Below, in pieces: positions 4,855 to 62,977 of a stretch of 64,000 nucleotides of DNA. The translations under genes were made by a program, and so were the position numbers. The first letter of the stretch is position 1; every line of letters begins with the position of its first letter. This stretch comes from a candidate division WOR-1 bacterium RIFOXYB2_FULL_36_35. Its GTDB lineage: Bacteria; Margulisbacteria; WOR-1; XYC2-FULL-46-14; XYC2-FULL-37-10. The stretch is taken from contig MEUA01000017.1 of the NCBI GenBank assembly GCA_001771505.1, positions 85,479-149,478 of the forward strand, given 5' to 3'. The notes beneath the pieces were generated by a model. That model was not told where the DNA came from and searched no databases. It saw nothing but the letters and a program-made list of their open reading frames with translations.

Positions 4855-4973
4855 GGGTCTGTTGCGTAATGGTCATTCCCGTGAAAACGGGAATCTATTT
4901 CTCAAAAAACAAGATGGATCCCCGCTTTCGCGGGGATGACAAATTGCAAAAACTATCATTACGCAACAAGCCC
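4855..4973. repeat. Family-2 repeat with terminal inverted repeats
   Basis: The element is bounded by perfect 11-bp inverted ends, GTTGCGTAATG at 4861-4871 and CATTACGCAAC at 4957-4967, extending imperfectly to about 17 bp each. Inside are two hairpins, ATTCCCGTGAAAACGGGAAT and one around ATCCCCGCTTTCGCGGGGAT. Its right half recurs at 42291-42350, and its end sequence recurs at 13470-13483 and 20753-20767. Confidence 0.75.
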
Positions 4974-5054
4974 TTTATAGGGTCTCTTCGATTGGTTATC
5001 TATAAAATTTCAGATTAGTTTGTCAGATTTTATCAAAAACCTCATTTGATATTT

Positions 5055-6848: not shown

Positions 6849-8053
6849 TTTGTAACAGATATAAAAATATTGCCTGTTGTTGTAAGTGTTCCGTTGCTTA
6901 CGGTAATTGTTAGCTGTCGTGAGCCTGTTGTATCGGGAGCTGTCCAAGTAGTTTGTGCTTTTGTTGCTTCAGAAAAACTTCCTTCTCCGCTCCATGCGTA
7001 TGTTAAAGTCAGGTTGTTTGGATCTGTTGCGCTGCATGTGAGGGTTATTTGATTTCCTATTGTCACAGTAGAAGATGAAGCTGTTATGCTGTTTATTACG
7101 GGAGGATCAACTTTTTTCTTTACTACAATACTTAATATTTCTGAGGCTGTATTTCCTGCTGTATCTGAAACGTTGGATATAACCTGATATGTCCCTTCTG
7201 TCGTTGGAGATGTCCATGTAGTTGATGATCCGGTTGTCGTTGCAAGTGTTCCTGATGTTGCAGCCCATGAGTAGGTTAACTCCAAATTGCTTGAGTCTGT
7301 TGCGCTGCAGGTAAGGGTTGCGACATCTCCTCCATACAAAGTTGTGGGAGTGTAACTTAAGCTTGTTATCTTTATTACAGATGAAGAGCTTGAACTTGAA
7401 ACAATCAATTTCAAGGTTCCGATTGTTACATATGTCCCATTGCTTACGGAGACTGTTACTGTATAAGTCCCTTCTGTTGTAGGGGCAGTCCATGAGACTG
7501 TTTTTCCTGTATTGCTTGAGAGTGTCCCTCCGTCTGCCGTCCAGGTTATAGATAGTGAGGTTGTTGTCTCTGTTGAACTGCTACTGCTTCCTGCTGTAAT
7601 ACATGTGAGCGTTGAGCTGAATCCGGGGACTCCTGTTGCAGGGGTTGCTGTAAGACTTGTTATTACAGGAGATTGATCTGATTCTTGGGTGCTGGATACA
7701 ACAATGATATTTAAGGAATTTGAGCCTGATACTGATCTATTGCTAGCTCTGACAGTTATCTGATATGTCCCTGGGGTTGAGGGGGCTGTCCACGTGACGG
7801 GGTTTGATGACGTGCTTGAAAAAGTCCCTCCGTTCGCGCTCCATGAGTAGGTAAAATTTTCAGAAGAGACGCTTGATGAACTTGACCCTGATGTGACAGA
7901 TGCGCTACAGGAAATTGTTGCCGTTTTACCGACAACAACAGAAGAAGGGGAGGCTGTAAGGCTTACTGTTAATGTTGTAGAAGAGCAACCGCATATAGTT
8001 AAAACAAAAAACAATATGGGTATTAACAGCGACAATTTTGACGCTTTTTTCAT
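6845..8053 (-). CDS. Surface lipoprotein with four Ig-like repeats
   Basis: The protein (402 residues) begins with a lipoprotein signal, a hydrophobic stretch followed by I-C-G-C with the acylated Cys probably at 23. Four immunoglobulin/PKD-like repeats of about 85-95 residues follow, at roughly 29-118, 128-218, 228-312 and 318-402. Each has a hydrophobic ITSL/VSL start, LTCSA, a central TYSWSA or similar, a TWTAP motif and a GTYQITV strand. Long serine runs separate repeat halves. It is probably an extracytoplasmic adhesive or scaffold protein. The stop codon is supplied by a family-1 palindrome, so the original C-terminus may have differed. Ligand unknown. Confidence 0.85.
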   Translation of the reverse strand: MKKASKLSLLIPILFFVLTICGCSSTTLTVSLTASPSSVVVGKTATISCSASVTSGSSSSSVSSENFTYSWSANGGTFSSTSSNPVTWTAPSTPGTYQITVRASNRSVSGSNSLNIIVVSSTQESDQSPVITSLTATPATGVPGFSSTLTCITAGSSSSSTETTTSLSITWTADGGTLSSNTGKTVSWTAPTTEGTYTVTVSVSNGTYVTIGTLKLIVSSSSSSSVIKITSLSYTPTTLYGGDVATLTCSATDSSNLELTYSWAATSGTLATTTGSSTTWTSPTTEGTYQVISNVSDTAGNTASEILSIVVKKKVDPPVINSITASSSTVTIGNQITLTCSATDPNNLTLTYAWSGEGSFSEATKAQTTWTAPDTTGSRQLTITVSNGTLTTTGNIFISVTN

Positions 8054-8240: not shown

Positions 8241-8302
8241 ACCCCGATTATGATAATCGGGGTTAGTTTCTGGTTTTATTGTGAACAATCGGGGTTCATT
8301 TG
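8241..8302. repeat. Family-1 palindrome plus trailing half-copy
   Basis: ACCCCGATTAT-G-ATAATCGGGGT is a perfect palindrome at 8241-8263. The following GGTTAGTTTCTGGTTTTATT resembles the sequence after the panD copy at 51290-51310. A further AATCGGGGTTCAT lies at about 8288-8300. The whole occupies the space between two minus-strand genes. Confidence 0.7.
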
Positions 8303-11748: not shown

Positions 11749-11849
11749 TTAACCCCGAATATTCACCCCGATTAGGAAATCGGGGTTCATAGACGAACAG
11801 AATTCTAGCAGAAAGTTGAAAATTTCCCCAGGTATGAAATCGGGGTTAA
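11749..11849. repeat. Family-1 repeat, full copy with core in inverse orientation
   Basis: The 101-bp copy runs from TTAACCCCGAATATTCA to AAATCGGGGTTAA. The core (GACGAACAGAATTCTAGCAG ... CCCAGGTATGAA) is the reverse complement of that in the copies at 33460 and 38109. The terminal TTAA (11846-11849) contains the leuA stop codon. Confidence 0.85.
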
Positions 11850-13381: not shown

Positions 13382-13442
13382 AATGTCTGTATTTTATCAT
13401 GCTTTTTTATGAAATTAAACCGAAATATCTTTAAGCTTTTTC

Positions 13443-13483
13443 ACACCCTTCGACAAGCTCAGGGTGACATTTCGCAACAGTCC
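13443..13483. repeat. Family-2 related hairpin repeat
   Basis: CACCCTTCGACAAGCTCAGG and the following GTGACATTTCGCAACAGTCCC form a hairpin (CACCCT/AGGGTG) plus the family-2 end. It is nearly identical to 20727-20767. Confidence 0.7.
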
Positions 13484-13580
13484 CTTCATAGTCTTTTGAA
13501 CAGGGCGATAAATCTTATTTTTTTATTGCACTTATAATAATTATTGAAATTATTTTGGAGTTAAAACGATATCATTATAT

Positions 13581-17916: not shown

Positions 17917-18043
17917 TTAACCCCGATTATTCACCCCGATTAGGAAATCGGCGTTCATACCTGGGAAAATTTCCAACATTCTGCTAGAATTCTGTTAGTC
18001 TATGAATCATTGGGGTTTACTCGAGGTATAAATAATCGGGGTA
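17917..18043. repeat. Family-1 repeat, full but decayed copy
   Basis: It begins TTAACCCCGATTATTCACCC directly after the xerC stop, contains the core (CATACCTGGGAAAATTTCCAA through GAATTCTG) and has a decayed right end TATGAATCATTGGGGTTTA. An additional AATAATCGGGGT lies at 18031-18042, just before the folC -10 box. Confidence 0.85.
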
Positions 18044-20699: not shown

Positions 20700-20726
20700 T
20701 TTTTAAGGATTCTCAAGAGGTTTTCT

Positions 20727-20767
20727 CACCCTTTGACAAGCTCAGGGTGACATTTCGCAATAGTCCC
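20727..20767. repeat. Family-2 related hairpin repeat
   Basis: A near-identical copy of 13443-13483 (CACCC, then a tract ending CAAGCTCAGGGTGACATTTCG), ending in AATAGTCCC. It lies between leuB and ddl. Confidence 0.7.
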
Positions 20768-28402: not shown

Positions 28403-28431
28403 TTAACCCCGATTATCATAATCGGGGTTAA
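28403..28431. repeat. Family-1 palindrome forming the 3' end of hflX
   Basis: TTAACCCCGATTAT-C-ATAATCGGGGTTAA is a perfect 29-bp palindrome. Read on the minus strand it encodes the last eight or nine residues and the stop codon of hflX. Confidence 0.85.
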
Positions 28432-32860: not shown

Positions 32861-32958
32861 TTTAAAAAACTCCTTGACAAGAAGTTGTTTTTAAAAATAT
32901 AATGCACCGTAGTGAATCTTTAAAGAATACTTTTTTTTCAAGGAGGTGATATTAAGAT

Positions 32959-33342
32959 ATGAGAAAAGGTTTTACACTTATTGAATTGGTTATGGTAATT
33001 GTTATTTTAGGTATTTTGGCTGCTATGGTTTTGCCCAGGTTTGTTAGTTTGCAAAATGAAGCCAAAATATCAGCAGCAAAAGGAGCTCTTGGCGCTATTC
33101 GTTCAGCTGTAGCTGTAAGATATGCTACAAGAGCTACAGTGGAATCAAATCCTATTCCGTCTACAATTGAAGCTTCAATGTTCCAAGATGGAGTAATACC
33201 CGTGGAACCGTTGACAAATTCTAGTTCTGTTACTCTTGTTAGTGGGGCATCTGATATTAGTTCTACAAGTACTGCGGGGTGGGCCTACTCTTCTTCGGAA
33301 GGAAGAGTTTGGATATATAATAGTAATTATGTAAGTTACTAA
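32959..33342 (+). CDS. Major pilin-like prepilin (GspG/PilA type)
   Basis: A 127-residue prepilin with a very short leader (MRKG), then mature F in FTLIELVMVIVILGILAAMV, with Glu at position 5 of the mature protein. A polar head of about 95 residues follows, ending in VWIYNSNYVSY without a disulfide pair. The strongest Shine-Dalgarno of the cluster (AAGGAGGTGA) and a terminator immediately downstream suggest it is produced in excess, as a major pilin would be. It has a close paralogue directly downstream, separated by a family-1 repeat. It needs a prepilin peptidase (not seen in the window). Confidence 0.9.
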   Translation: MRKGFTLIELVMVIVILGILAAMVLPRFVSLQNEAKISAAKGALGAIRSAVAVRYATRATVESNPIPSTIEASMFQDGVIPVEPLTNSSSVTLVSGASDISSTSTAGWAYSSSEGRVWIYNSNYVSY

Positions 33343-33378
33343 GTTTTGGAATTAAAAATATCTTTAAGTTTTTTATTT

Positions 33379-33414
33379 AAAGAGCGGAAGCTGTTGTGCT
33401 TCTGCTCTTTTTTT
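33379..33414 (+). terminator. Terminator after the first pilin gene
   Basis: AAAGAGCGGAAGC pairs with GCTTCTGCTCTTT (one mismatch) and is followed by TTTTT. It would let the major pilin message end separately from the rest of the operon. Confidence 0.8.
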
Positions 33415-33459
33415 ATAAAATGAGCCCCAAAAAAATTATTATGCTGAATTGAATAGAAT

Positions 33460-33549
33460 TTAACCCCGATTAGGCAATCGGGGTTCATACCTGGGAAAAT
33501 TTTCAACACTCTGCTATAATTCTGTTTGTCTATGAATAATCGGGGTTAA
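33460..33549. repeat. Family-1 repeat, full copy
   Basis: This 90-bp copy, from TTAACCCCGATTAGGCAATC to GAATAATCGGGGTTAA, with the core CATACCTGGGAAAATTTTCA and the TTCTGTTTGTC stretch, is one of the best preserved. It separates the two pilin paralogues and ends only five bases before the second gene's start. Confidence 0.9.
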
Positions 33550-33553
33550 CTTG

Positions 33554-33955
33554 ATGTTAAAATTAATCAATATGAAAGCTGGCTATACTCTTATTGAACT
33601 TGTTATTGTTATTGTATTAATAGGTTTTTTTGCTGCTATGGTTCTTCCTAGATTTGTTAGTCTAAACCATGAGACTCGTCTTGCTGCGGCTAAAGGGGCT
33701 TTAGGTTCTATTAGATCTGCCGTTGCTATTCGGTATATCATAAATGCTACTATCGAGGGTTTTGATGCTGTTCCTGATAATATTACCCCGGAGATGTTTC
33801 AGAATCGTGAAGTTCCAATAGAACCATTAACAAATACAAATGAAGTTACAATTGTTTCTTCTTTGGAAGATATTGTTGTAGGTGGCGTGGGGTGGGCATA
33901 TGACAATGTAAATGGGAAAGTTTGGATTAATAATCCTAATTATATTAATTTTTAA
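33554..33955 (+). CDS. Second major pilin-like prepilin
   Basis: A paralogue of the preceding pilin (about 133 residues). The leader is MLKLINMKAG or MKAG depending on the ATG (33554 or 33572), then YTLIELVIVIVLIGFFAAM. It shares AAKGALG-IRSAVA-RY and the terminal VWI-N-NY pattern with the first pilin. The mature first residue is Tyr instead of Phe. No strong ribosome-binding site is visible, and the sequence before it is a repeat element, so its expression may differ from the first pilin. Confidence 0.87.
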   Translation: MLKLINMKAGYTLIELVIVIVLIGFFAAMVLPRFVSLNHETRLAAAKGALGSIRSAVAIRYIINATIEGFDAVPDNITPEMFQNREVPIEPLTNTNEVTIVSSLEDIVVGGVGWAYDNVNGKVWINNPNYINF

Positions 33956-33968
33956 TTAATTCCTCAAT

Positions 33969-34024
33969 TTAACCCCGATTATTCATACCGTAAGTAAACT
34001 CCGATTGCCTAATCGGGGTGAATT
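33969..34024. repeat. Family-1 repeat, short copy before the third prepilin gene
   Basis: It begins TTAACCCCGATTATTCATAC and ends GCCTAATCGGGGTGAATT. The core is missing. A frame opened within it by a TTG at 34005 reads into the next gene but has no support as a start. Confidence 0.75.
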
Positions 34025-34076
34025 ATGTCAATTTAATTATTGCAACACGTGGCCTGGAGTGTTAGAATCATACCCG

Positions 34077-34574
34077 ATGGTCTTAAAGCAAAAAAATGGA
34101 TATACCCTTATAGAGGTTGTGATTGTTATAGTTCTTATTCTTATTCTGTCAGCTAGTATTTTTGTTTATGTTAATTTTTCCAGAGATTTTAATTTGGATT
34201 CAGCTGCTTCCAAAGTTGCCTCGGATTTGCGTTATGCACAAAGTCTTTCTATGTCTACGGCACGATGGTATGGTGTAAGCTTTGAAGGGAATTCATATGC
34301 TATTTATACTACAACAGGAACACTTGATACACTTATAAATGATCCTGCAAGTTTTGGCAAGGATATGGTTGTTAATGTCTATGATCAATTTGGCTTATCA
34401 GTAAATGTTTACATTGATGGAGGAAATAAAATTGAATTTAGTCCTTTAGGACAACCTTATATTGATAGAAACAGCTTTATATTAACTAACGAAGGAGTAG
34501 TTACCTTAAGTACGGGAGCTCTTTCAAAAACTGTAAGAATAACGCCTAACACAGGAAAGGTTTATATACAATGA
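34077..34574 (+). CDS. Minor prepilin (GspH/FimT-like)
   Basis: A prepilin-like protein of about 165 residues with leader MVLKQKNG, then YTLIEVVIVIVLILILSASIF, followed by a polar domain with the FNLDSAASKVASDLRYAQSLSM stretch typical of GspH/FimT minor pilins. I take the ATG at 34077; an in-frame GTG at 34059 is possible. It overlaps the next prepilin gene by 4 bases (ATGA). Minor pilins prime pilus assembly or sit at the tip. Confidence 0.87.
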   Translation: MVLKQKNGYTLIEVVIVIVLILILSASIFVYVNFSRDFNLDSAASKVASDLRYAQSLSMSTARWYGVSFEGNSYAIYTTTGTLDTLINDPASFGKDMVVNVYDQFGLSVNVYIDGGNKIEFSPLGQPYIDRNSFILTNEGVVTLSTGALSKTVRITPNTGKVYIQ

Positions 34575-34963
34575 ATAAAAAGGGATTTACTCTTATTGAA
34601 CTTATAGTTGCCATTATGGTTATAATAGTTGCTTTTATGGCTCTTATATCTGTTTTTACGGGTGTAATGCCTAAAGGAATTGCCCTCGAATTCATTTCTA
34701 AATCTACTTATCTTGCTAATCTTTTAATAGAAGAGGATCTGTCCAAAGATTTTTATTCTATCTCTTCAGTCTCTCCGACAAATTTTAGTTCTCCTTTTGA
34801 TAAATTCAGTTATGAAATAGTAGTTGATTTTGTGACTACAGCAGAGCCTGATGTTGTTTCTGCTAATGGGACTAATTTTAAAAGGGTTAAAGCCAGGGTT
34901 TGGAGTAAGTTATCTCCGACTATCGAGGTTGTAACATTGGTGACTACATATGAAAGCTTATAA
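34571..34963 (+). CDS. Minor prepilin (GspI/PilV-like)
   Basis: This 130-residue prepilin has leader MNKKG and mature start FTLIELIVAIMVIIVAFMAL, with Glu at mature position 5. The remainder is a small polar domain with KSTYLANLLIEEDL, similar to GspI/PilV, which make a pseudopilus tip complex with GspH, GspJ and GspK equivalents. It starts inside the stop of the upstream gene and overlaps the next gene by 14 bases. Confidence 0.85.
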   Translation: MNKKGFTLIELIVAIMVIIVAFMALISVFTGVMPKGIALEFISKSTYLANLLIEEDLSKDFYSISSVSPTNFSSPFDKFSYEIVVDFVTTAEPDVVSANGTNFKRVKARVWSKLSPTIEVVTLVTTYESL

Positions 34964-35465
34964 ATTTAAGCGCTTTGATAAAGGTAACGGGTATACCCTT
35001 ATAGAACTTATTCTTGTCATTGTGGTTTTGGGAATTATATCTTTTACTTTTGCGGCGTTTATTACAAAAGGGATAGATGCCTGGGTGTTTGTGAAAACCC
35101 GAGATAGCGCCGTTGGAAGCGCCCGCTATGCAATGAACAGAGTGATTACAGAAATGCGAAGGATAGCTGGTCCGGAAAGTATGATAATTATGTCTCAAAC
35201 CGAGTGCAGTTTTGAAGCTTTTGATAAAGATGGGAATATAATTATTGTGGATTTCAGGCAATCAGGAGATGTGCTTTATAGAAATAATGATGAGCTTGTG
35301 GATGGCTTATTGAATCCGGGAGGAATTGTTTTTACTTATTTAGACAATGAGGGGGTTGTAACTGCTGTAAGTTCAGAAGTAAGGAGTATACGAAGTAAAT
35401 TGTCTATAGAAAAACATTCTCAACTTGTTACTTTGGAATCAGCGGCAAGAATAAGAAATTTATGA
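34950..35465 (+). CDS. Minor prepilin (GspJ/PilW-like)
   Basis: A prepilin of 171 residues with a longer leader (MKAYKFKRFDKGNG), then YTLIELILVIVVLGIISFTF. The body has RDSAVGSARYAMNRVITEMRR, a helix typical of GspJ/PilW. It overlaps both neighbours (14 bases upstream, 4 bases downstream), so the prepilin set is made from one coupled message. Confidence 0.85.
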   Translation: MKAYKFKRFDKGNGYTLIELILVIVVLGIISFTFAAFITKGIDAWVFVKTRDSAVGSARYAMNRVITEMRRIAGPESMIIMSQTECSFEAFDKDGNIIIVDFRQSGDVLYRNNDELVDGLLNPGGIVFTYLDNEGVVTAVSSEVRSIRSKLSIEKHSQLVTLESAARIRNL

Positions 35466-38112: not shown

Positions 38113-38211
38113 CCCCGATTATTCACCCCGATTAGGGAATCGTGGTTCATACCTGAGGAAATTTTCAACACTCTGCTAGGATTCTGTTCGTCTATGAATA
38201 ATCTGGGTTAA
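38109..38211. repeat. Family-1 repeat, full copy
   Basis: This 103-bp copy has TTAACCCCGATTATTCA at the left, a core with ATTCTGTTCGTC and TGAATAATCTGGGTTAA at the right. The first TAA is the stop codon of the second PilX-like gene. Confidence 0.88.
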
Positions 38212-42290: not shown

Positions 42291-42350
42291 ATGGATCTCC
42301 GCTTTCGCGGGGATGACAAATTGCAAAAACTGTCATTTCGTGACAGTCCC
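42291..42350. repeat. Family-2 repeat, right half
   Basis: The stretch from ATGGATCTCCGCTTTCGCGG through GGATGACAAATTGCAAAAAC and GTCATTTCGTGACAGTCCC corresponds to the right half of the element at 4855-4973. The hairpin TCCGCTTTCGCGGGGA is retained. It lies between the convergent pilQ and gpsA genes. Confidence 0.7.
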
Positions 42351-42359
42351 ATGATGTGA

Positions 42360-43996: not shown

Positions 43997-45037
43997 ATGA
44001 TTACTATAGGTTCGACAAAAATTAAAACCAATATATTTCTTGCTCCTCTTGCGGGATGTTCGGATCTTGCTTTTAGGCTTTTATCCCGTGAGTATGGAGC
44101 AAAATTTTGTTTTTTTGAAATGGTAGACGCGCATTCTTTAATATATGGAACCAAGCAGAGTTTTGATATTTTAAAAACTCATCCTAAGGATAAGCCTATT
44201 GCGGCTCAATTGCTTGGCAGTGATCCGGAAATAATGCTTAGGGCTGCTCTAAAACTTTTAGAATTTGTAAAGATTGATTTTCTTGATATTAATGCCGGAT
44301 GTCCTGTTAATAAAGTGATTAAGAAGAATTGCGGATCTTATCTTGTAAAAGAGCCTGAGAATTTATTTAAGGTCATAAAAAAACTATCGCAAAATTTATC
44401 AGTTCCTGTAACAGTCAAACTAAGATCTGGTTTTCTTGAAAAGGATACTAAAAAACTGATATTAATTGCTAAAAGATGTGAAGATAGCGGCGCTGCTGCT
44501 TTGTTTATTCATGGAAGGACAAGATCTCAGCTGTATTCCGGAGAGATTGATTATGAGGCTATAGAAGCTGTTAAAAAAAATGTTGCCATCCCTGTTTTTG
44601 GTTCCGGAAATATCTTTAATTGTGAACTTGCAAAAAAAATGTTTGAGGAGACGGGATGTGATGGGATTTTGGTTGCGAGGGGGGCATTTGGCAATCCATG
44701 GATATTTAAAAATTTGGAGAATTATTTAAAAACTGGGAAAGAACCAAGAGAAATTACTCTTTCTGCCAAGAAAAAAGCATTAAAAAGACATCTGTATTAT
44801 ATTAATAAGTATAGAAAAGGCTATAAACCCCGATTATTTACGGTAGAACCAGAAATTCACCCCGATTTTCTAATCGGGGTTTATAATCGGGGTGAAAATA
44901 GCGTAGTCGGTTCTATGCGTAAAGTTGCTTTGTGGTACACCAAGTCTTTTGAAGGAGCCGCAAAATTAAGAGGTCAAATTAATAATGTACAAAGCCATGA
45001 TGAACTTATAGATTTAATAGATGAGTTTATGAATTAA
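43997..45037 (+). CDS. dusB: tRNA-dihydrouridine synthase with an in-frame repeat insertion
   Basis: A flavin enzyme that reduces specific uridines in the tRNA D-loop. The FMN barrel (about 1-245) has LAPLAGCSDLAFRLL, the catalytic Cys in NAGCPVNKV near residue 99, KLRSGF, FIHGRTRSQLY and GSGNIFN near 200. In the C-terminal helical tRNA-binding domain, a family-1 repeat (44823-44896) is read in frame and adds about 25 residues (RLFTVEPEIHPDFLIGVYNR and flanks, about residues 275-300) between KYRKGY and ENSVVGSMRKVALWYTK. Reading continues normally on both sides, so the protein is likely still made. It converges with the U32 gene, overlapping by 4 bases. Confidence 0.93.
   Translation: MITIGSTKIKTNIFLAPLAGCSDLAFRLLSREYGAKFCFFEMVDAHSLIYGTKQSFDILKTHPKDKPIAAQLLGSDPEIMLRAALKLLEFVKIDFLDINAGCPVNKVIKKNCGSYLVKEPENLFKVIKKLSQNLSVPVTVKLRSGFLEKDTKKLILIAKRCEDSGAAALFIHGRTRSQLYSGEIDYEAIEAVKKNVAIPVFGSGNIFNCELAKKMFEETGCDGILVARGAFGNPWIFKNLENYLKTGKEPREITLSAKKKALKRHLYYINKYRKGYKPRLFTVEPEIHPDFLIGVYNRGENSVVGSMRKVALWYTKSFEGAAKLRGQINNVQSHDELIDLIDEFMN
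44823..44896. repeat. Family-1 repeat inside dusB
   Basis: ATAAACCCCGATTAT at 44823 is matched by TAATCGGGGTTTAT at 44871-44884, a second ATAATCGGGGTGAA at 44883-44896, and an internal CACCCCGATTTTCTAATCGG hairpin. It remains open in the dusB frame. Confidence 0.85.
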
Positions 45038-52273: not shown

Positions 52274-52363
52274 TACACCCCGATTATTCATGGACGAACA
52301 GAATTCTAGCAGAGGGTTGGAACTTTTCCCAGGTATGAACCCCGATTTCCTAATCGGGGTTCA
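52274..52363. repeat. Family-1 repeat, full copy with inverse core
   Basis: TACACCCCGATTATTCATGG at the left, the core in inverse orientation (GACGAACAGAATTCTAGCAG, then CCCAGGTATGAA) and a right hairpin ending TAATCGGGGTTCATA are present. It lies alone in the gap before an unknown gene. Confidence 0.85.
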
Positions 52364-62946: not shown

Positions 62947-62977
62947 ATAAACCCCGATTATCATAATCGGGGTTTAT
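62947..62977. repeat. Family-1 bare palindrome
   Basis: ATAAACCCCGATTAT-C-ATAATCGGGGTTTAT, perfect 15-bp arms around one base. Confidence 0.85.

Follow-up and report, generated by a model that had tools for sequence, protein, structure and literature searches.

A palindromic repeat inserted in frame in dusB of an uncultivated WOR-1 bacterium, and its dispersed family of 20-bp units

The window examined here (the whole stretch of 64,000 nucleotides) carries a dusB gene in which positions 44828-44892 are a true insertion of a palindrome of a mobile family, and this insert very likely belongs to a family of miniature palindromic mobile elements specific to the lineage. The insertions themselves, their empty sites, the duplication of the target, the preservation of the reading frame and the restriction to one lineage are all shown by the data below. 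The relative compared for dusB is G002, the closest genome, which belongs to the same family and another genus. The gene and its insert are composed as follows.

43997-45037, plus strand: dusB (tRNA-dihydrouridine synthase family), intact ORF of 346 amino acids hosting the element.
44824-44827, plus strand: left 4-bp copy of the target-site duplication, TAAA, one base diverged from TGAA.
44828-44892, plus strand: form A palindromic element, 65 bp, in-frame translation PRLFTVEPEIHPDFLIGVYNRG, empty site in G002; single-strand DNA folding much stronger than that of shuffled sequences (z = -5.1).
44828-44837, plus strand: left terminal inverted repeat CCCCGATTAT, 10 bp.
44860-44879, plus strand: inner 20-bp hairpin unit CCCCGATTTTCTAATCGGGG, with its own flanks TTCA/TTTA.
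44883-44892, plus strand: right terminal inverted repeat ATAATCGGGG, 10 bp.
44893-44896, plus strand: right 4-bp copy of the target-site duplication, TGAA.

The host ORF is free of stops and frameshifts across its 346 amino acids, its product matches the Pfam Dus family with E = 1.1e-75, and the Cys of the NAGCP motif is retained. Within it, 10-bp terminal inverted repeats enclose a spacer and the inner 20-bp hairpin, and the element together with one 4-bp flank amounts to 69 nt, a gain of 23 codons. The DusB of G002, which is 70% identical, reads KYRKG directly followed by VESSKVGIMRK and has exactly 23 residues fewer. The DNA of this empty site, AAAGGAGTTGAATCAAGC, reads GT-TGAA-TCA, and its TGAA is the same 4 bp found duplicated, with slight divergence, around the dusB element. 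The segment is also missing from approximately 22 further Dus ORFs aligned from the class and phylum, and nothing comparable exists at this position in the DusB homologues of T. maritima and E. coli.

A preliminary description, made without database searches, had proposed that a palindromic repeat spanning 44823-44896 lies within the conserved dusB without breaking its frame, between segments that are contiguous or nearly so in other DusB proteins. Both claims held, and the span was almost exact, differing little from the element with its two flanking 4-mers. The proposed gain of about 25 residues held only in part, the figure relative to G002 being 23. That description had suggested aligning relatives and searching the genome for the repeat; the alignment finds G002 to lack exactly the inserted residues with matching flanks on both sides, and the search reveals a dispersed, genome-wide and lineage-specific family. 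It had also named two findings that would refute it. An equally long, alignable segment in relatives is absent from the aligned Dus ORFs and from the T. maritima and E. coli proteins, and there is no frameshift killing dusB. Its suggestion that the insert is tolerated in a helical tRNA-binding domain is still an inference; an AlphaFold model predicted from one sequence was not of usable quality (pLDDT 37).

The genome is that of an uncultivated bacterium in draft form (1.95 Mb, 67 contigs, 96% complete), and the dusB element has 110 blastn matches in it, the best of the others being 85-87% identical over ~70 bp. Exact hairpins of the pattern CCCCGATTN0-12AATCGGGG occur 151 times, while a reversed-pattern control returned 0. 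Hairpins with a loop of 4-5 bases number 148 here, as compared to one in G002, one in G006 and none in 28 other genomes of the class. When a 103-nt form B query was run against 57 genomes, it recovered only the genome of origin and one weak match in G002 that resembles a degenerate copy, TTCACCCCGATTATCCTAATCGGGATTTATAATAGGGG. Given this degenerate copy, the palindrome family is likely older than the genus and has expanded in the present genome. In a genome-contig collection from which the genome of origin may have been excluded, the 20-base core hit nothing but two unrelated tandem repeats (a Pseudomonadales MAG and Calothrix), and no Rfam family was matched within the window.

The minimal unit of the family is a 20-bp hairpin, CCCCGATTTCCTAATCGGGG, which occurs 91 times at one mismatch or fewer, either nested or solo. 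The ends CCCCGATT...AATCGGGG are common to all members, and the longer forms of 65, 71 and 95 bp have them around an internal spacer, often with the 20-bp unit nested within. Full elements are mainly the 95-bp form B (30 of 45), form A being 65 bp. The target is TNNA, with TTAA, TAAA, TTCA, TTTA and TGAA found as flanks, and the two 4-bp flanks are identical in 32 of the 45 full elements (shuffled mean 11.4, maximum 20 in 5000 shuffles). Solo 20-bp units have identical flanks in 24 of 46 cases (shuffled mean 12.2, maximum 22). For the solo units of a 21-bp sister hairpin, flank identity was not significant (15 of 46, against a shuffled mean of 11.5 and a maximum of 20). Nested hairpins within longer forms mostly have TGAA on both sides or TTCA on both sides, and the genome contains outer elements that lack the inner 20-bp unit alongside others that carry it; forms A and B thus probably represent nested insertions of one type of end. 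The form B copies at G000:C28:36697 and C66:8397 have a spacer that is inverted with respect to the hairpin end; possibly the inner unit can enter the TGAA of either terminal arm.

Apart from the dusB element, the window contains the following members of the family.

8242-8262, plus strand: 21-bp sister hairpin, solo, outside long ORFs.
11766-11785, strand not assigned: 20-bp unit nested in a form B-like copy.
17921-18015, minus strand: form B copy, 95 bp, belonging to a compound repeat.
28407-28427, plus strand: 21-bp sister hairpin, solo, flanked by TTAA/TTAA, with no ORF reading through.
33999-34018, plus strand: 20-bp unit in a longer degenerate copy, upstream of a pilin-like gene.
38113-38207, minus strand: form B copy, 95 bp, with the duplication TTAA/TTAA.
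52340-52359, plus strand: 20-bp unit in a partial form B copy.
62952-62972, plus strand: 21-bp sister hairpin, solo, outside long ORFs.

Several other repeats share this stretch. A second repeat, GGATCCCCGCTTTCGCGGGGATGACAAATTGCAAAAACTGTCATT, lies at 4914-4978, at 42291-42355 and near G000:C24:49579, in places adjoining or fusing with the palindromes, and a third dispersed family, CACCCTTCGACAAGCTCAGGGTGACATTTCGCAACAGTCCC, is present at 13438-13484 and 20721-20767. Five tandem pilin-like genes with a common GYTLIELVIVIV start region occupy 32957-35030, with palindrome copies between them, and tandem repeats of ~270-300 bp lie within an apparent repeat-protein gene at 6914-7795.

The family had been described beforehand as lying between genes elsewhere in the window, and this must be corrected on a genome-wide scale, as many other copies are in genes and in frame. 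Besides the dusB copy, at least 20 are in frame in other long ORFs, and for six of these there are relatives without the segment; the enzymes are lengthened by 8 to ~37 amino acids. Form A is found in frame in a 499-aa protein without a Pfam match, a GT9 glycosyltransferase and an NtrC-like regulator. Form B or its variants are in frame in a BcrA/BadFG-like protein of 1464 aa (named from its sequence, with no Pfam run), an IMPase, a second GT9, a thioredoxin-like protein and an LpxB-like protein, the last carrying it in reverse orientation. In-frame copies of the bare 20-bp hairpin number 13, spread over 12 ORFs that include those of TatD, a complex I/Mrp-type subunit, a histidine kinase, a DUF362 protein and a TPR-like protein, and they mostly encode the peptide E-PRFPNRG-E, or E-PRLGNRG-E in the other orientation. 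The complex I-type subunit is particularly clear: a relative has AGATGTGAATATACG where the present protein has AGATGTGAACCCCGATTTCCTAATCGGGGTGAATATACA, a gain of exactly 8 residues, and the empty site TGT GAA TAT is here filled as TGT GAA CCC CGA TTT CCT AAT CGG GGT GAA TAT. Exactly 8 amino acids are likewise missing from the TatD of the relative and of eight others, and the histidine kinase of the relative has no hairpin segment. Relatives of the 499-aa protein are shorter by ~24 residues at the insert, and those of the BcrA/BadFG-like protein and of the IMPase each lack ~33 residues. The NtrC-like insert sits in a variable linker, and its exact insertion is not proven by relatives. As ORFs were called from stop to stop, three copies (C18:42594, C37:12669 and C17:119477) possibly precede the true start and were not counted as proven. 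Two 20-bp insertions were observed in single ORFs (G000:C24:16281 and 17490; G000:C28:13757), one of them degenerate (SEPRLGDRGEY). Judged by their sequence only, the degenerate members of such pairs are likely older in-gene insertions that have drifted while remaining in frame. With at least 20 further ORF sites and a lineage-specific repeat, the earlier proposal of an independent protein-invading repeat in this lineage is supported.

An element with its 4-bp duplication measures 24, 69, 75 or 99 nt, all multiples of three, and in the phase xxT-NNA-CCC-CGA forms A and B are free of stops in both orientations unless NNA is TAA or TGA. Insertion into a gene therefore merely adds a short peptide. 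With its duplication, the 21-bp sister hairpin amounts to 25 nt and would be frame-shifting. Read-through by an ORF of 150 aa or longer is found for 16 of 46 solo 20-bp units and 0 of 46 solo 21-bp units (Fisher p = 6e-6). The 20-bp set is complete to one mismatch, whereas the 21-bp set is incomplete, coming only from stretches retrieved around copies, and 3 of the 16 read-through units lie within long forms or upstream of a likely gene start; in a less biased subset, contigs 1-18, the corresponding figures are 3 of 12 and 0 of 23 (p = 0.03). The contrast is the pattern expected of translated inserts under selection, and we believe this is its likely cause, although translation is inferred and there is no peptide or RNA evidence. 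That the inserts are retained in the proteins and are neutral or mildly harmful there is likewise an inference from sequence alone. Of the 13 solo in-gene copies, 12 are in the phase T-GAA on the coding strand and none is in T-TCA, though the latter is equally open. As T-GAA and T-TCA occur in the long ORFs of the window in a ratio of 258 : 130, the probability of 12 of 12 in T-GAA is ~0.008 (hand calculation). Possible causes are selection favouring Glu rather than Ser, or a mechanism aware of the strand. The preliminary description had foreseen neither the 4-bp target duplication, the 20-bp minimal unit and the nested build nor the exclusion of the frame-shifting 21-bp form; its interpretation is supported, and was understated.

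The mechanism we propose is that palindrome units insert at TNNA and duplicate those 4 bp, and that selection would then retain in-gene insertions at positions where the protein tolerates an added peptide. The dusB copy would have landed in TGAA, a Glu codon, in a putative loop that precedes the MRK helix in the helical domain at the C terminus. The units may be moved by an unidentified enzyme acting in trans, either through DNA cut-and-join or through an RNA intermediate. Target duplications and empty sites demonstrate that insertion is real, and the mobilising agent remains unidentified, no enzyme having been found among the families searched. Neither an IS1380-type transposase (PF13701) nor DDE_Tnp_1 (PF01609) is present in the draft genome, which does not exclude other transposase families or a parent that is lost or foreign. 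The only Y1 (IS200-like) transposase detected is at G000:C41:23275-23640; it has an internal TAA stop, and its 3.4-kb neighbourhood holds zero hairpins. The genome seems poor in transposases (the one broken Y1, with no PF01609 or PF13701) despite its abundant small repeats.

Two alternatives deny that the dusB segment is a translated mobile insert. It has all but been excluded that it is an old functional part of the DusB of this lineage, such as a tRNA-contact loop. Its position between helices of the putative tRNA-binding domain and the intact ORF would suit such a role, but an identical peptide occurs in unrelated proteins, relatives lack exactly these residues while matching at the flanks, and terminal repeats and a target duplication are present. 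It is also most improbable, if less firmly ruled out, that the insert is in the gene without reaching the protein, through removal from the mRNA or through ribosome skipping as at the byp elements of yeast mitochondria or T4 gene 60. Translational bypassing is documented in the literature, and in most 20-bp insertions the duplication places matched GAA...GAA codons around a hairpin. Take-off and landing codons in bypassing have just this matched-codon layout. However, skipping would free length and stops from constraint, yet none of the in-gene copies disturbs the frame or brings a stop in its reading phase, and the 21-bp form is absent from ORFs.

The remaining alternatives concern movement, and here the matter is less settled. 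It is possible that these are ordinary MITEs of a DDE insertion sequence (IS1380/piggyBac-like, with a 4-bp duplication and CC ends), the 20-bp solos being moved by or left from that system. The ends do begin with CCCC, the target is often TTAA, the duplication is of 4 bp and the long forms are of MITE size. Against this, no such transposase (PF13701, PF01609) is in the genome, 20 bp is too short for two transposase-bound ends, and the solos have target duplications and exact empty sites of their own and therefore insert as 20-bp units. Mobilisation as REP/REPIN-like units by a Y1 (HUH, RAYT-type) transposase is very unlikely. The hairpins are small and in high copy and one Y1_Tnp gene exists, but that gene is interrupted by a stop and has no hairpin nearby. 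HUH transposition is not known to leave a target duplication, and the one here is clear. A bolder reading of our preferred account is that the 20-bp palindrome alone is a complete transposing unit with 4-bp duplications, among the smallest of mobile DNAs, and that the T-GAA bias could point to an RNA intermediate or coupling to transcription beyond selection alone; we lean slightly against it.

Among known systems, bacterial MITEs (Correia/NEMIS, ERIC, QMITE of Coxiella) have terminal inverted repeats, target duplication, and intergenic as well as some in-frame copies (PMC2229807, PMC5896051). Both of the first two features, which constitute the MITE criterion, are present in our family; MITEs, however, are typically of 100-400 bp with TA at their ends and a matching IS, as opposed to 20-bp units for which no matching transposase was found. 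REPIN/RAYT systems also comprise short non-autonomous hairpins in high copy (PMC3116915), but their criterion of an intact, hairpin-flanked RAYT fails here, and the 4-bp duplication is a further difference. The GC clusters of yeast mitochondria are small palindromes that merge and nest and are bordered by short duplications (PMC4478555); they are organellar, mostly intergenic and have 2-3-bp duplications, in contrast to the bacterial genes and 4-bp duplication of the present case. Small dispersed repeats (SDR) of Nostoc are reportedly 21-27 nt, some of them hairpin-forming, self-nested and thought to be mobile (Elhai et al. 2008, doi 10.1101/gr.074336.107; cited in PMC3116915). Our 20-21 bp units and nested insertions resemble them (the SDR sequences were not compared), though the host differs, and to our knowledge in-frame SDR insertions with a 4-bp duplication across many protein genes are not known. 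We found no description, in the literature searched, of a family that combines a 20-bp unit, a defined 4-bp duplication, nesting and frequent in-frame insertion.

A further likeness is to RPE-1 to RPE-3 of Rickettsia and their Wolbachia counterparts, dispersed palindromes that lie in frame inside conserved genes and lengthen the product (PMC2229807, PMC3767692, PMC10969869). The preliminary description had drawn this likeness, which holds for the mode of protein invasion: the palindrome occupies intergenic sites and also lies in frame inside protein genes that are unrelated to each other, as one RPE/WPE criterion demands, and conserved proteins are lengthened in frame in a like manner, by analogy and with the sequences uncompared. 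RPEs are ~100-150 bp and described in Rickettsiales, a length criterion that our members of 20, 65, 71 and 95 bp fail. Their target duplication is given as '?' in PMC2229807, whereas ours is a clear one of 4 bp, and our family differs further in lineage, 20-bp unit and nested build, and presumably in sequence. As such, the family works like RPEs and is not classed as RPE on account of its size and build, any kinship of sequence being undetermined. Protein-invading palindromes are known chiefly from Rickettsiales, and the present family adds an independent example, far smaller in its unit and cleaner in anatomy: its empty sites in a relative are exact, its target and duplication are defined, and its unit is 20 bp. 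The 20-bp and 21-bp hairpins furthermore form a natural control that shows selection on frame directly. With this family, both the means by which so short a DNA moves and the frequency with which mobile DNA adds peptide segments to conserved enzymes become testable.
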